The translations under genes and the position numbers were made by a program. A stretch of 64,000 nucleotides of DNA from Cellvibrio sp. KY-YJ-3 (GTDB lineage Bacteria > Pseudomonadota > Gammaproteobacteria > Pseudomonadales > Cellvibrionaceae), in assembly GCF_008806955.1 (NCBI RefSeq), contig NZ_CP031727.1, forward strand, positions 1,550,001 through 1,614,000, given 5' to 3'. The number at the start of each line of letters is the position of its first letter. Within the stretch, counting starts at the first letter, position 1. The notes under the pieces were generated by a model that had not been told where the DNA came from, did not search any database, and was given only the letters and a program-made list of their open reading frames with translations. This document shows, piece after piece, positions 5,651 through 10,458 of this stretch.

Positions 5651-6261
5651 AGTTCTTTTGCCTCAAACATTACTCGTAATTTCTGCAGCGACAGGCGCAA
5701 GCGGCCTTTCACTGTCCCCAAAGGAATTTTCAATTCCTCTGCCACTTCCTCGTGGGTTTTGCCTTCGTAGTAGACTTTGCGCAGTGCAATCATTTGTTCT
5801 TCCGGTAATTTATCGATGGCGTTTTTTACAAACTTTTCCGTCGATAAATTTTGAATCGAGCAAATGGTGGTGTCCTCAGTCGGGATCTGCCACAAGTCTT
5901 CAGTTTCTATCACCACTTCCGCGCGGGTGCGATTCAGTTTGCGCAGCATATCGATACGCTGGTTGCGCGTGATGGTGAAAATCCAGGTGGACACCGAGGC
6001 CAGCGCCTCGGAATATTTACCGGCGTTGCGCCACACACTGGTCATCACCTCTTGTACCAACACTTCGGCATGCTGACTAAAGCCTTGATTGATCGCATAG
6101 GCTTTTATACGTGGTGCAAAGTGTTTGTAGATCTCTCTAAACGCTGCTTTGTCATCGTGTTCGGCCACGCGGGCTAGCAGGGCGCCCCAGTCCGGGGTAT
6201 CGTTTGCTGCACTTGAGTCATTCATCGACCGGGCCTTTGTCGTCGTCATTTGATGTCTCAT
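5647..6261 (-). CDS. rpoE: ECF RNA polymerase sigma factor, RpoE/ChrR (ECF11-like) group
   Basis: Region 2 is seen around YKHFAPRIKAYAINQG to VSTWIFTITRNQRIDMLRK, and region 4 around LPEEQMIALRKVYYEGKTHEEVAEEL to KGRLRLSLQKLR. The overlapping chrR gene assigns it to the ChrR-controlled group. The start is uncertain: ATG at 6261 (GGTGAG upstream), 6249 or 6225 (AAAGG upstream) are all possible; I keep the longest. A TGATCG-N16-CGTA element lies 44 nt upstream on the same strand, consistent with autoregulation. The pair is probably a photo-oxidative or singlet-oxygen stress module, with the divergent DUF4397 gene as a likely target. Confidence 0.92.
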   Translation of the reverse strand: MRHQMTTTKARSMNDSSAANDTPDWGALLARVAEHDDKAAFREIYKHFAPRIKAYAINQGFSQHAEVLVQEVMTSVWRNAGKYSEALASVSTWIFTITRNQRIDMLRKLNRTRAEVVIETEDLWQIPTEDTTICSIQNLSTEKFVKNAIDKLPEEQMIALRKVYYEGKTHEEVAEELKIPLGTVKGRLRLSLQKLRVMFEAKEL

Positions 6262-6304
6262 TATCGCTCACCGGGTAGTTTTAGATAGTCCGTAACACAC
6301 CTAA

Positions 6305-6330
6305 TACGCCACCTTTATTGCTAGCGATCA
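6305..6330 (-). promoter_or_regulatory. Putative ECF sigma-dependent promoter of rpoE-chrR (autoregulatory)
   Basis: Read on the minus strand the sequence is TGATCG (complement of 6325-6330), 16 nt, then CGTA (complement of 6305-6308). This resembles the TGATCC/CGTA promoter pattern described for RpoE-ChrR sigma factors. The divergent promoter at 6409-6434 has the same hexamer but for one base and the identical 16-nt spacer, which makes chance less likely. Confidence 0.6.
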
Positions 6331-6408
6331 CCCATACACCCGTGTTTTCGTGCATTTGTGTAATGGGGCAATTTTTGCAAATTATTTTTCATTTTTTTTA
6401 CGCCGGTT

Positions 6409-6434
6409 TGATCCCTCCCAAAAAACAGGGCGTA
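6409..6434 (+). promoter_or_regulatory. Putative ECF sigma-dependent promoter of the DUF4397 gene
   Basis: TGATCC (6409-6414) and CGTA (6431-6434) are separated by exactly 16 nt. The pattern fits promoters recognised by ChrR-controlled sigma factors and points at the large lipoprotein gene starting at 6542, with a leader of about 100 nt. Confidence 0.65.
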
Positions 6435-6541
6435 AACCATCCCCGCTGATACCCACCGATGTAATGGGTTTCGCCCTGTGTTACCGATCCAATCTAATCA
6501 CCAATAACAGCTAATACGATCAATACCAGAGGTAAGGAAAA

Positions 6542-9379
6542 ATGAAATCATTCAGAGGTTTTACTACCCTCGCGAAAGGAGCGGTGCTTGCACTACTCAG
6601 CGTCGTTCTTGTTGCCTGCGGTAGCGATAGCAAAAAGCAAGATGTGCGTGTAGCTGTCAGCCCCGCTGCTGTAACGGTAAAAGTGGGCATGACTCAAAAT
6701 TTCACGGCGAGTGTTTTCGGTACTAAAAATGCGAGTGTTAGCTGGGCAGTCGATGAAGCCAATGGCGGCACTATCACTGGCGCTGGTGTGTATACGGCAC
6801 CAGCCACCCCAGGCACTTACCATGTGACAGCCACCAGTGTTGCGGATAACACCAAAAAGTCCTCGGCGACCGTAACGGTTGTACCACTGGATAAAACCAC
6901 CGTGCGTGTATTCCATGGTTCAGCCGACGCGCCCAAAGTGAACCTGTGGGTAAACAATGCGGAGGCAGTTTCTGATCTGGATTATTTGCAATCGACCGGC
7001 GTATTGGAGCTGGATGAAGGCACTTACAACATCGCTGTAGAGGGTGTTATCCCCAGCGGCAATGCGGTAGTGATTGGCCCGGTTGATTTGCAATTGGCGG
7101 GCAACACCGCCTATGACGTAATTGCCGTCGGTCCAGTGGCCGATATAGAGCCTTTAGTGATTGCGGACACTGGCAGCCTGAGCGATGCCACCAAAGTGCG
7201 AGTGCGTGTAGCCCACCTTGCCGCTGCCGCGCCTGAAGTAAAAGTGTTTGTCACCGCGCCCGACGCTGACCTCGCCAGCGCCACTCCGCTCGGCACTTTC
7301 GAATTTAAAGACACTCTCGGCCCCGTTGAAGTGGATGCTGGCACCTACCAGATCCGCGTAACCCTGGCTGACAATACCGTCGTTTATGATTCAGGCGCCG
7401 TAGCACTGATGGCCGGCAAAGATCTGTTGGTGGGCGCGGTAGCCAATGTTGGTACTGGTTCATCGCCCATCAGCCTTGCGGTATTGGATGGTGACGCGGT
7501 CGCAATCCTGAACGACAAAAATGCCGGTGCCGACATCCGTGTGGTACACGCCTCGGCAGATGCACCGGCTGTCGATGTCACCGCGAATGACGCTGATACG
7601 CCTGCCATCGCTAACCTCGCATTCCCCGAAGCGACTGGCTACCTGAACCTGCCTGCGGCGACCTACAACTTCAAAGTGACTCCCAACGCAGCGACTACTC
7701 CTGTTGTGATCGATGCCGACTTAGCTCTGGCGAACGGCAGTGCCTACAGCGTTTTGGCGGTAGGTGCGCTGGCCAATATTGAGGCTTTGGTGCTGACCGA
7801 CAACAACCGTTCGGTGGCAACCGAAGCCAAAGTGCGTTTGGTGCACGGTTCAACCCTGGCTGGTAATGTCGATATCTATGTCGTTGCTGCGGGTGCGGAT
7901 ATCGCGACTGCATCCCCCGCATTCGCCAATATCCCTTTTAAAGCCGAAACCGGTTATGTCAGCCTGGCTGCCGGTGAATACGACGTAATCATTGCGCCAA
8001 CCGGCACCAAAACAGAAGCCATTAAAGCCTCTGTTGCCCTTGAAAATGGTGGTGTTTATACCGCGATCGCACGCGACGGCGCTGGTTTGACTGCGGCCTT
8101 GGGGGTGATTGGTTTGGATGGTTTGGCACCTAACAAAACCCAAGTGCGTGTTATCCATGCGTCTGCGGATGCACCTAAAGTGAATCTGTGGGTAGATGGC
8201 GCTGTAGCTGCATCAGGCTTGGATTATCAGAAAACGACTGGTTTCCTTGAGCTGGATGGCGGCACCTACAACATCGCGGTAGAAGGTGTAATTCCCGGCG
8301 GCAACGCGACAGTGATAGGCCCCGTCGACTTAACCTTTGATGCCAACATGCGTTACGACGTACTGGCCGTGAATTCGGTGGCTAACATCGAACCCTTGCT
8401 ACTGACCGATATGGGCAAGCTGGCTAATGGCAACAACGTGCGTGTGCGTGTGGCGCACTTGGCAGCCGCTGCACCGGAAGTGAAAGTGCATGTGACTGCA
8501 CCCGGCGATGCCATTTCTGACGCGACTTCACTCGGCAGTTTCGAATTTAAAGAAACCTTAGGCCCCGTCGAAGTTCCCGCTGGTACTTATCGTATCCGTG
8601 TCACCCTGCCCGATAACACCGTGGTATTTGACTCAGGCTCAGTTGCTCTCACTAGCGGTAAAGACCTGCTAATCGGCGCTGTGCCAAACGTGGGTACCGG
8701 TACATCGCCCATCCAGCTGATTGTGGTGGACGGTGCTGACGTTGCAGTACTGGGTGATGCCATGGCGGGGGCCAATATTCGTGTAGTGCACGCCTCCGCC
8801 GATGCGCCCGCAGTGGATGTAATCGCGAATGACGGCGTGGCTCCAGCCGTCAGCAACCTGGCATTCCCTGCATTCACCAACTACCTGAACCTACCTGCCG
8901 CGACTTACAACTTCAAAGTTGTGCCTACCGGTGTAACTACCCCCGTTGTTATCAACGCCGACGTGCCACTGGCCAACAGCACCGAGTACACGCTGCTGGC
9001 AGTGGGCGCTTTGGCGAACATCGAGCCGCTGTTATTAACTGACAACAACCGCAAAGTTGCGACCGAAGCCAAAGTGCGGTTGGTGCACGGTTCTTCGTTG
9101 GCGGGTGAGGTGGATATCTACGTAGTGGCTGCCGGTGCATCCATCGCAGAAGCTATGCCCGCGTTTACGGCGGTGCCCTTCAAGGCGGATACCGGTTATG
9201 TATCGCTGGCTGCAGGTGACTACGATGTAATTATCACTCCAACCGGCACCAAAACCGAAGCCATCAAAGCCACCCTGACCTTTGCCACTGGTATGGTTTA
9301 CACCGCCGTAGCACGCGATGGTGTTGGGTTGACTACACCGCTGGGTGTGATTGGTTTAGATGCATTAGCGCCGCAATAA
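6542..9379 (+). CDS. Large lipoprotein with Ig-like domain and eight DUF4397-like repeats
   Basis: The 945-residue product has a lipoprotein signal peptide with lipobox LVAC (C26). Residues about 36-115 form a Big-type Ig-like domain. The rest is a tandem array of DUF4397-like units of about 100 residues, starting VRVFHGSADAPKVNLWV near 121 and VRVIHASADAPKVNLWV near 535. Four units form a block of 414 residues that is present twice. DUF4397 proteins have no established function; the architecture suggests a surface-exposed beta-rich adhesive or structural lipoprotein. AGGTAAGG precedes the ATG. The upstream ECF-type promoter suggests induction by the neighbouring sigma factor. Confidence 0.9.
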   Translation: MKSFRGFTTLAKGAVLALLSVVLVACGSDSKKQDVRVAVSPAAVTVKVGMTQNFTASVFGTKNASVSWAVDEANGGTITGAGVYTAPATPGTYHVTATSVADNTKKSSATVTVVPLDKTTVRVFHGSADAPKVNLWVNNAEAVSDLDYLQSTGVLELDEGTYNIAVEGVIPSGNAVVIGPVDLQLAGNTAYDVIAVGPVADIEPLVIADTGSLSDATKVRVRVAHLAAAAPEVKVFVTAPDADLASATPLGTFEFKDTLGPVEVDAGTYQIRVTLADNTVVYDSGAVALMAGKDLLVGAVANVGTGSSPISLAVLDGDAVAILNDKNAGADIRVVHASADAPAVDVTANDADTPAIANLAFPEATGYLNLPAATYNFKVTPNAATTPVVIDADLALANGSAYSVLAVGALANIEALVLTDNNRSVATEAKVRLVHGSTLAGNVDIYVVAAGADIATASPAFANIPFKAETGYVSLAAGEYDVIIAPTGTKTEAIKASVALENGGVYTAIARDGAGLTAALGVIGLDGLAPNKTQVRVIHASADAPKVNLWVDGAVAASGLDYQKTTGFLELDGGTYNIAVEGVIPGGNATVIGPVDLTFDANMRYDVLAVNSVANIEPLLLTDMGKLANGNNVRVRVAHLAAAAPEVKVHVTAPGDAISDATSLGSFEFKETLGPVEVPAGTYRIRVTLPDNTVVFDSGSVALTSGKDLLIGAVPNVGTGTSPIQLIVVDGADVAVLGDAMAGANIRVVHASADAPAVDVIANDGVAPAVSNLAFPAFTNYLNLPAATYNFKVVPTGVTTPVVINADVPLANSTEYTLLAVGALANIEPLLLTDNNRKVATEAKVRLVHGSSLAGEVDIYVVAAGASIAEAMPAFTAVPFKADTGYVSLAAGDYDVIITPTGTKTEAIKATLTFATGMVYTAVARDGVGLTTPLGVIGLDALAPQ

Positions 9380-9403
9380 CTGCTTTTTCAGGTTATTTAT
9401 CCT

Positions 9404-9435
9404 AAAAGCGCCCGGATTCGTCCGGGCGTTTTTTT
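9404..9435 (+). terminator. Intrinsic terminator after the DUF4397 gene
   Basis: The stem CGCCCGGA (9409-9416) with TCCGGGCG (9421-9428) closes a TTCG tetraloop and is followed by seven T. Confidence 0.93.
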
Positions 9436-9483
9436 GCCCAGAACAATACTATTTTTTCATCGGCGGCTTGAAGGATTAGCTAT

Positions 9484-9529
9484 TGTGTATTAGTGTAGTG
9501 ATACACATGGTGTTTTGGGTTGTACACCA
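9484..9529 (+). promoter_or_regulatory. Two adjacent inverted repeats, candidate operator of the downstream operon
   Basis: The first repeat is TGTGTAT-N10-ATACACA (9484-9507). It is followed without a gap by TGGTGT-N10-ACACCA (9508-9529). Both arms are perfect and their centres are 23 bp apart. The GTGTA/TACAC halves resemble sites of YtrA-type GntR repressors, and such a repressor is encoded in the operon that begins 33 nt downstream. Confidence 0.55.
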
Positions 9530-9561
9530 CCACACAACAATAAAGCCGCAAGGAGAGTTCG

Positions 9562-10458
9562 ATGAGTATTCATCGCCATTTATCAATAAGCCGTTTTTTA
9601 ATCCTGCTCTGCCTGTTGGCAGGTGCATCCGCGCATGCGCAAACCAGCCTGTACGAGATCAGCAAGGACAATCAGAAAATTTATTTGGGCGGCACTATTC
9701 ATTTGTTGCGCAGCAGCGACTACCCCTTGCCCGCCGAATATGATCACGCCTATCAACAGGCCGATGTGCTGGTACTGGAAACCAATCTGGACAATGCGGC
9801 ATCGCCTGAGTTTGGCCAAAAAATGGCGAAAGCATTTATGTACAGCGGCGGAAAAACTCTCGCCGAGGATTTGCAACCCGCACTCTGGCAAGAGCTGCAG
9901 ACTTTTTCAGCCGCACGCCAATATCCCATCGCCCAAATGAGTGCCTTTAAAGCGATGTTTGTCAGTCTGTCGCTCTCGGTAGTTGAAATGCAGCGTTTAG
10001 GGTTTGGTGTGGCCGAGGGAGTGGATATGGTTTTTTTCCAAAAAGCCAAAACCGATAGCAAGCCCGTATTGGAATTGGAATCCGGCGATGAAGTATTAAC
10101 ACAGCTCGCATTGCTGGCGGATATGGATGCCAATATGGTGATCAAAGCTACCCTGCGCGATTTACACAAAATGGATGCGGTGTTGGAAAAAGCATTGGGT
10201 TATTGGCGTCGTGGTGAACTGGAAAAATTGGATCGCGAAATGTCGGCCGATATGCGCCGCGAAGCGCCCGAGGTCTATCAGCATTTATTAATCGCACGCA
10301 ATCAGGCGTGGCTACCCAAAATAGAAAAACTGTTTGCAACGACCGATGTGGAACTGGTGTTGGTGGGTAGTTTGCATCTCTCCAGTAAAGATGGCCTGCT
10401 CGCGCAACTTAAACAGCGCGGTTATCAGGTAAAACCTTATCTCGCCAAACAACCATAA
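9562..10458 (+). CDS. TraB/GumN family periplasmic protein
   Basis: The 298-residue product has a signal peptide (about 1-26, ending AHA). The family signature is visible as GGTIHLL near residue 34 and VGSLHLSS near 270, with conserved Glu/His residues between, as in TraB/TIKI-like putative metalloproteases. The substrate is unknown. AAGGAG lies 7 nt before the ATG. It is the first gene of an operon with ABC-transporter genes and a GntR repressor; the next gene begins 20 nt later. An envelope-stress or antimicrobial-resistance role is a guess from the context. Confidence 0.85.
   Translation: MSIHRHLSISRFLILLCLLAGASAHAQTSLYEISKDNQKIYLGGTIHLLRSSDYPLPAEYDHAYQQADVLVLETNLDNAASPEFGQKMAKAFMYSGGKTLAEDLQPALWQELQTFSAARQYPIAQMSAFKAMFVSLSLSVVEMQRLGFGVAEGVDMVFFQKAKTDSKPVLELESGDEVLTQLALLADMDANMVIKATLRDLHKMDAVLEKALGYWRRGELEKLDREMSADMRREAPEVYQHLLIARNQAWLPKIEKLFATTDVELVLVGSLHLSSKDGLLAQLKQRGYQVKPYLAKQP

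Follow-up and report, generated by a model that had tools for sequence, protein, structure and literature searches.

The closest described systems are the ChrR-controlled ECF11 sigma factors, and among these RpoE-ChrR of R. sphaeroides, which governs a singlet-oxygen response, provides the nearest solved relatives of the proteins analysed here (2q1z and 2z2s). The two systems are alike in their aligned zinc ligands and in core operon genes that carry the promoter. They differ in that a DUF4397 gene lies divergent to sigma in Cellvibrio, whereas the available part of a review of the R. sphaeroides system does not name DUF4397 (PMC6852236).

Promoter sequences have been described for other members. 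For PSPTO_1043 of P. syringae, a consensus of TGATCC-N16-CGTA was derived from binding-site peaks, and the sigma-chrR pair (PSPTO_1043/1042) is itself a target; none of the targets listed in the accessible text is named DUF4397, though several are labelled only as hypothetical (PMC5507510). The same sequence is found in the promoters of RpoE2, the sigma factor of the RpoE2-ChrR pair of Shewanella oneidensis, two of them with mapped starts, and the targets listed in the accessible sections of that paper include a periplasmic glutathione peroxidase, ferrochelatase, photolyases, a Lon-domain protein, an SDR and fatty-acid genes, with no DUF4397 term (PMC4336711). For V. cholerae, the corresponding excerpt gives a motif of TGATC-N16-18-CGTAW (PMC5241685). 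Our literature searches returned nothing joining DUF4397 with a sigma factor; the 2008 R. sphaeroides comparative regulon study, which may list unnamed orthologues, lay outside their scope. Titles on Cellvibrio, ChrR and singlet oxygen, and on ECF11 in other genera, likewise held nothing on DUF4397 as a target, in agreement with the original prediction, which knew of no established role for these proteins in singlet-oxygen or oxidant response. The ECF11 system is therefore already known; what is new, in the sense of unreported in the searches made, is a recurrent, predicted exported target without known function and a swap of partners at the sigma locus.

We analysed a 64,000-nucleotide stretch of the Cellvibrio sp. 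KY-YJ-3 chromosome (the window). With a probability of about 0.88, the region at 6305-6434 contains two divergent promoters of the adjoining ECF11 (RpoE-ChrR) sigma, and DUF4397 lipoprotein genes are recurrent members of the gammaproteobacterial ECF11 regulon.

The sigma-chrR locus of the window

In the window, chrR and the sigma gene are separated by a 280-nt gap from a DUF4397 lipoprotein gene on the opposite strand (Table 1). The window's genome combines an ECF sigma factor with regions 2 and 4, a cognate ChrR with a zinc domain and a cupin, a predicted autoregulatory TGATC-N16/17-CGTA promoter, and a core regulon (photolyase, SDR, FAD oxidase, DUF1365 and CfaS) that carries the promoter, all of which are expected of an ECF11 sigma-ChrR pair. 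The class of the sigma factor was assigned by comparison with solved structures, among which RpoE of R. sphaeroides is nearest. The anti-sigma factor scores 188.4 bits against TIGR02451 (cut-off 124.5), and the solved R. sphaeroides ChrR (2z2s_B) aligns over most of its length, with the DCICL segment kept. The zinc ligands of both ChrR domains, which we take to be His5, His30, Cys34 and Cys37 and, in the cupin, HxH-x3-E...H, are all kept in the alignment of the window ChrR.

Table 1. Features of the sigma-chrR/DUF4397 locus (window coordinates) and motif sites before redox-type genes elsewhere in the genome (locus:position)
Feature	Position	Strand	Description
ChrR anti-sigma factor, 223 aa	4979..5650	-	zinc-binding N-terminal domain and ChrR cupin; TIGR02451, Cupin_7, alignment to 2z2s_B
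ECF sigma factor, RpoE/ECF11-like, 204 aa	5647..6261	-	Sigma70_r2 and r4; closest solved structure R. sphaeroides RpoE 2q1z_A, E 3.1e-36
Predicted ECF11-type promoter facing the sigma-chrR operon	6305..6330	-	-35 TGATCG (6325-6330), N16, -10 CGTA (6305-6308); TACG and GATCA columns invariant in 9/9 Cellvibrio
Predicted ECF11-type promoter facing the DUF4397 lipoprotein gene	6409..6434	+	-35 TGATCC (6409-6414), N16 with A-tract, -10 CGTA (6431-6434); TGATC and CGTA invariant in 9/9 Cellvibrio
Small hairpin in the lipoprotein leader	6451..6469	+	ACCCA...TGGGT; kept in most Cellvibrio relatives folded
DUF4397 lipoprotein, 945 aa	6542..9379	+	putative signal peptide with lipobox LVAC (Cys26, by reading), then eight DUF4397 stretches (PF14344, E 6.2e-140)
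TraB/PrgY/GumN-family gene	9562..10458	+	PF01963; 182 nt downstream of the DUF4397 gene
Redox-type gene sites, window's genome	L180:5374, L181:5298, L182:5770(-), L183:5591, L179:9587(-)		DCC1-like, AhpC/TSA, flavin oxidoreductase, catalase-family, DUF3833

The predicted promoter pair and the partner of sigma in Cellvibrio

The pattern TGATCS-N16-CGTA matches exactly twice in the window, and both matches fall inside the gap between the two start codons, each directed at its own gene. Shuffled sequence contains a mean of 0.16 matches, and two of 100 shuffles reach two. The two sites are those originally predicted, TGATCG-N16-CGTA toward sigma and TGATCC-N16-CGTA toward the lipoprotein gene, and the ChrR-type character claimed for their TGATCC and CGTA elements is borne out by the published P. 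syringae, Shewanella and V. cholerae consensus. Their spacers, described as identical, are so in length (16 nt) but not in sequence, where 10 of 16 positions agree as counted by eye. A simple scan of 6200-9700 revealed no sigma-70-like site.

Across the 4.49-Mb genome there are 61 exact TGATC-N16-18-CGTA places versus 24 for the reversed pattern, a lenient control because the reversed pattern includes CTAG, which is rare in many bacteria. Genome-wide counts alone show no enrichment: TGATCS occurs at 168 places over 13 spacings, and the share of N16, at least 12 in a hand count among the matches listed, is little above an even one. With a motif this common, the pair is by count alone only suggestive.

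Comparison turns the predicted promoter pair convincing. Both sites, with N16 after the hexamer, are found in all nine Cellvibrio genomes that have the divergent sigma/DUF4397 arrangement. Over 6262-6505 in these nine, all 18 TGATC/CGTA columns are invariant versus 28 of the 226 other columns; an AAA within the spacer of the lipoprotein-facing promoter (6421-6423) is likewise invariant. The two -35 elements stand 78-80 nt apart in eight of the genomes and 68 nt apart in the ninth.

In a survey of 144 genomes of the family, ChrR scored over the cut-off in 122 (any match in 133), and DUF4397 was present in 33 (over the cut-off in 32). The genus set comprises 21 genomes including the window's own: ten carry the window's kind of sigma-chrR, with ChrR 69-100% identical, six carry another, canonical-type kind whose ChrR is only 36-37% identical to that of the window, and in the remaining five no ChrR scores above the cut-off. 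DUF4397 occurs in nine of the ten genomes of the window's kind, divergent from sigma each time, in one of the six of the other kind (G025, where it is unlinked and a promoter site was not found), and in none of the five without ChrR. The tenth genome of the window's kind, G027, has sigma-chrR with its sigma-facing site and no DUF4397 match; the TraB/GumN-family gene adjoins sigma there, and no site was found toward it. ChrR relatives of the window's kind, at 53-56% identity, also occur in four genomes from a different genus of the family, again with no DUF4397 match. As a side observation, the two kinds of sigma-chrR replace each other within Cellvibrio (loci L099 and L102-L106; 36-37% identity in ChrR), and no genome among the matches listed has two ChrR over the cut-off.

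The loci of the other kind resemble that of the window in having a pair of divergent ECF11 sites, with sigma facing a divergent ECF11 promoter in 6/6 Cellvibrio genomes, and differ in the partner, which is an operon of SnoaL-like, SDR, FAD oxidase, DUF1365, CMAS (cyclopropane synthase type) and DUF2878 genes (Pfam names from one genome, G025). In genomes of the window's kind, the SDR/FAD oxidase/DUF1365/CMAS operon sits elsewhere and has its own TGATCC-N16-CGTA in seven of the nine genomes fetched, the window's own included (G030 is outside this count); of the other two, G019 has a different operon without a site and the contig of G032 is too short. Because the core-operon site of the window's genome sits inside the photolyase ORF, at the 3' end, coding constraint accounts for part of the site's conservation. 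In genomes without ChrR (G016, G022 and G029) the core operon is differently flanked and the site is absent, and G017 has, at the core operon, an N17 match that lies in a coding region and on the opposite strand. DUF4397 takes the place beside sigma that loci of the other kind give to the core operon.

DUF4397 genes outside the linked Cellvibrio

Within the family, 21 unlinked DUF4397 loci were scanned, leaving out five without a tblastn match to the window lipoprotein (L114, L123, L131, L133 and L135) and the match in G138. Two of the 21 (L111 and L116) have a near-gene site with at most one mismatch, in both cases N16 with one mismatch about 60 nt before the start. A one-mismatch N17 site lies 319 nt upstream in L122, and L128 has only a two-mismatch form, 63 nt before the start.

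A wider sample came from scanning a DUF4397 alignment against a collection of 84,980 species, which gave 425 relatives; the best 80 of the 425 by similarity to the window lipoprotein were taken. Five of these are linked Cellvibrio and 75 are others (including the G025 gene, L213); a lipoprotein ORF was called in 72 of the latter. An exact TGATCN-N16/17-CGTA lies within 200 nt of the start at 50 of the 75 DUF4397 loci, versus one of 713 other genes of the same loci. The spacer is N16 in 28 and N17 in 22. Among the 72 loci with a called ORF, other spacings from N8 to N24 are limited to N15 in three and N10 and N11 in one each, and the 713 other ORFs have N15 twice, N11, N13 and N16 once each, and N17 never. 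The site is 50-80 nt before the start in 48 of the 50 loci, and 58-64 nt in all of these 48 but L235. Meanwhile, the upstream gene varies, being of RNase D (L221), NifU/Fe-S (L232), flavodoxin-fold (L214) or DUF3833 (L235) type, and the site stays with the DUF4397 gene. Chance co-occurrence of the motif, weighed against shuffles, other spacings and other genes of the same loci, was rejected.

The exact site is present in Rheinheimera, Alishewanella, Alkalimonas (one of two), Arsukibacterium, Pseudidiomarina, Idiomarina and Aliidiomarina, in Shewanella corallii (171 nt upstream), and in one Alteromonadaceae and one Kangiellaceae bin. It was not found in Marinobacter (6/6), Exilibacterium (2/2), Aeromonas (3/3), Pleionea and others; two of the Aeromonas loci read TGATCC-N16-CATA and the third has no called ORF. 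Some Rheinheimera-type DUF4397 genes have a tandem pair of ECF11-like sites roughly 100 nt from each other, the second being N16 in L273, L274 and L280 and N15 in L253, L254 and L272.

The original prediction also asked whether DUF4397 genes neighbour ECF11-type sigma genes elsewhere. One does: in the Kangiellaceae locus L235, a divergent DUF3833 gene is followed by the promoter, DUF4397, sigma and chrR, which makes a second and differently built sigma-chrR/DUF4397 linkage. Such adjacency is rare (1/75 loci), though the promoter is present in 50/75. Linkage in nine Cellvibrio genomes and this Kangiellaceae genome could also mean that the lipoprotein is a signalling part rather than an effector, one that senses the state of the envelope and feeds back on sigma-ChrR and is for that reason linked and co-induced; linked regulators are commonplace in ECF loci. 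We consider this unlikely, as the protein, with its apparent lipobox, is presumably exported, while ChrR is a soluble protein with a sensor-type cupin of its own. Moreover, most of the 75 other DUF4397 loci are unlinked, and G027 retains the sigma-chrR pair with no DUF4397 match.

Presence of the site goes with presence of ChrR. ChrR scored over the cut-off in 66 of the 74 genomes searched (the genome of L269 is outside this count), and the site was found at DUF4397 in 49 of these 66 versus none of the eight others (Fisher 7e-5, ignoring kinship; with related species, such values do not stand for independent tests). Several of the genomes come from metagenome binning, so that a missing ChrR may reflect incompleteness, and for two of the eight ChrR-negative genomes, which lack a called ORF, the 400 nt before the match were scanned. 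The exact site is absent in 17 of the 66 ChrR-positive genomes, including those of Marinobacter, Exilibacterium, Aeromonas and Cellvibrio G025. These absences, together with the 61 motif places in the window's genome, would suit a reading in which the sigma-facing site is a real autoregulatory promoter and the lipoprotein-facing match is incidental, the gene being driven by a housekeeping or other promoter. This is very improbable in view of the 9/9 conservation amid diverged surroundings, the N16/N17 site at DUF4397 genes versus the other genes of the same loci, and a simple scan that found no sigma-70-like site. Recognition by another ECF sigma of the genome, for which one could cite the motif before bcp in a Cellvibrio genome with no ChrR match (G015), is the least probable alternative of all, since the site is missing at DUF4397 in all eight genomes without ChrR, the sigma gene carries the same motif, and the motif is the published ECF11 one.

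Spacing of the sigma gene's own promoter was expected to co-vary with that of the DUF4397 promoter, and in the 60 of 66 ChrR loci compared this was not found. Idiomarinaceae have N17 at DUF4397 and mostly N16 at the sigma gene, and in Rheinheimera and relatives (L290-L297 and similar) a search of 500-1,200 nt upstream of chrR found no exact sigma-gene promoter, even though the DUF4397 gene carries an exact site. Taken together, sequence and comparison strongly support the divergent ECF11 promoters and the membership of DUF4397 genes in the regulon, and the claim that ECF promoters link sigma with the lipoprotein holds up in Cellvibrio and also in other groups, where unlinked DUF4397 genes carry this promoter.

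The lipoprotein, its possible role and the wider regulon

The lipoprotein scores 459.5 bits against PF14344 (gathering threshold 30.6) over its eight stretches. The putative lipobox was found by reading, and Cys26 is invariant in an 8-row alignment; the protein is presumably exported. Residues 116-533 were modelled as an all-beta array (mean pLDDT 93.5, pTM 0.89). Foldseek matches of this model, among those listed, are generically Ig-like, with E-values of 4e-6 and weaker and query TM-scores of at most 0.35, and include PepT extracellular domains, a bacterial TIE protein and adhesins; no convincing enzyme is among the first 50. Only two sequence hits to solved structures were obtained, of epimerase/dehydratase type at E 0.02, which were taken as chance. 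A relation of DUF4397 to AlgF is mentioned in a table note of PMC7349177, in the part of that paper available. The use of the name for a zinc-finger domain of phage nucleases, in the accessible text of PMC10448857, does not fit the PF14344 seen here; the term also appears in a paper on a chitinase.

DUF4397 proteins from the called loci (best 80 of 425) are low in Cys (0.22%), Met (0.94%), Trp (0.12%) and His (1.09%) versus 1.11, 2.34, 1.56 and 2.47% in the other ORFs there, whereas Tyr is not depleted (2.67 versus 2.91%). This composition would fit an oxidation-resistant envelope protein, although it is only a hint because the same bias is usual for Ig-like repeats. As the modelled part is all-beta with generic Ig-like matches, an envelope-protecting role is something we infer from the fold and the regulation.

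By analogy with ChrR homologues, as treated in the available part of the review (PMC6852236), oxidative damage by singlet oxygen or peroxides would be sensed by ChrR, freeing sigma. RNA polymerase carrying this sigma would then fire both promoters, as their consensus and conservation suggest. Leftward initiation from 6305-6330 would produce more sigma and ChrR (autoregulation), and rightward initiation from 6409-6434 the 945-residue lipoprotein of tandem DUF4397 domains, followed by its export. In the envelope, the protein may be a non-enzymatic Ig-like scaffold or shield, or a binder of an envelope polymer, made or replaced during envelope oxidation. The gene would be placed under this control in different ways: linked to sigma in Cellvibrio, just upstream of sigma-chrR in one Kangiellaceae genome, and away from sigma but behind the same kind of promoter, as a rule some 60 nt ahead of the start, in Rheinheimera, Alishewanella, Arsukibacterium, Idiomarinaceae and others.

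A broader proposal is tentative, and we hold it to be somewhat less probable than its negation. Within the ECF11 response to singlet oxygen or peroxide, DUF4397 lipoproteins might be a branch devoted to the envelope, in which Ig-like modules arranged in tandem and low in Cys, Met, Trp and His coat or brace an outer membrane undergoing oxidation. Several gammaproteobacterial families would have retained this branch in the regulon, and in Cellvibrio it would occupy the divergent position that canonical-type loci give to the core fatty-acid operon. An ECF11 promoter at DUF4397 genes in several lineages would give a family without known function a first likely role and a concrete, testable context, namely an envelope under photo-oxidative or peroxide stress. 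It would also add a predicted exported, apparently non-enzymatic member to a regulon associated with DNA repair, fatty-acid modification and peroxidases, and may help to explain the presence of ECF11 in so many non-photosynthetic bacteria.

Two neighbours of promoter-bearing DUF4397 genes fit an oxidative-stress setting: a glutathione peroxidase gene in L214 (4383-4925) and a fatty acid desaturase gene in L235 (4251-5294).

A genome-wide motif scan had been proposed originally. When those of the 61 motif places outside ORFs of at least 200 aa were listed, N16 sites were found before genes for a DCC1-like thiol-disulfide protein, an AhpC/TSA (Bcp-like) protein, a flavin oxidoreductase, a catalase-family protein and a DUF3833 protein (Table 1), which plausibly constitute a redox regulon. 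N16 sites also precede ORFs that show no obvious connection with redox functions (L013, L016, L150 and L154).

Conservation was examined at two of these wider sites. A bcp match exists in 20 of the 21 genus genomes, 19 of them readable; the bcp-like site is present in three of the nine genomes with the window's sigma kind and a bcp match (G000, G020 and G014) and in none of the five readable ones of the other kind. The catalase-family site occurs in G000 and G020 and is absent, at up to one mismatch, from distant homologues in G021 and G014. Given this patchiness, the part of the regulon outside DUF4397 and the core operon appears either to turn over or to include false matches. Separately, the TGATCT-N16-CGTA of G015 (L199) lies 81 nt before bcp.

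Two further features flank the lipoprotein coding region. The leader hairpin, folded in eight of the nine linked genomes (all but G021), has a 5-pair consensus in which two pairs show at least one two-sided change, with a weak covariation term of -0.12; with five pairs and little covariation, it would be at best a tentative candidate for a terminator or riboswitch. Judged by eye, the matching stem of G019 is longer, at about 11 pairs. Downstream, the TraB/PrgY/GumN-family gene follows DUF4397 in six of the nine linked genomes (the window, L091, L092, L094, L096 and L097), the contig of L098 being too short to tell. No terminator-like site is listed in 9380-9561 of the window, and the gene could possibly be co-transcribed with DUF4397 by read-through.
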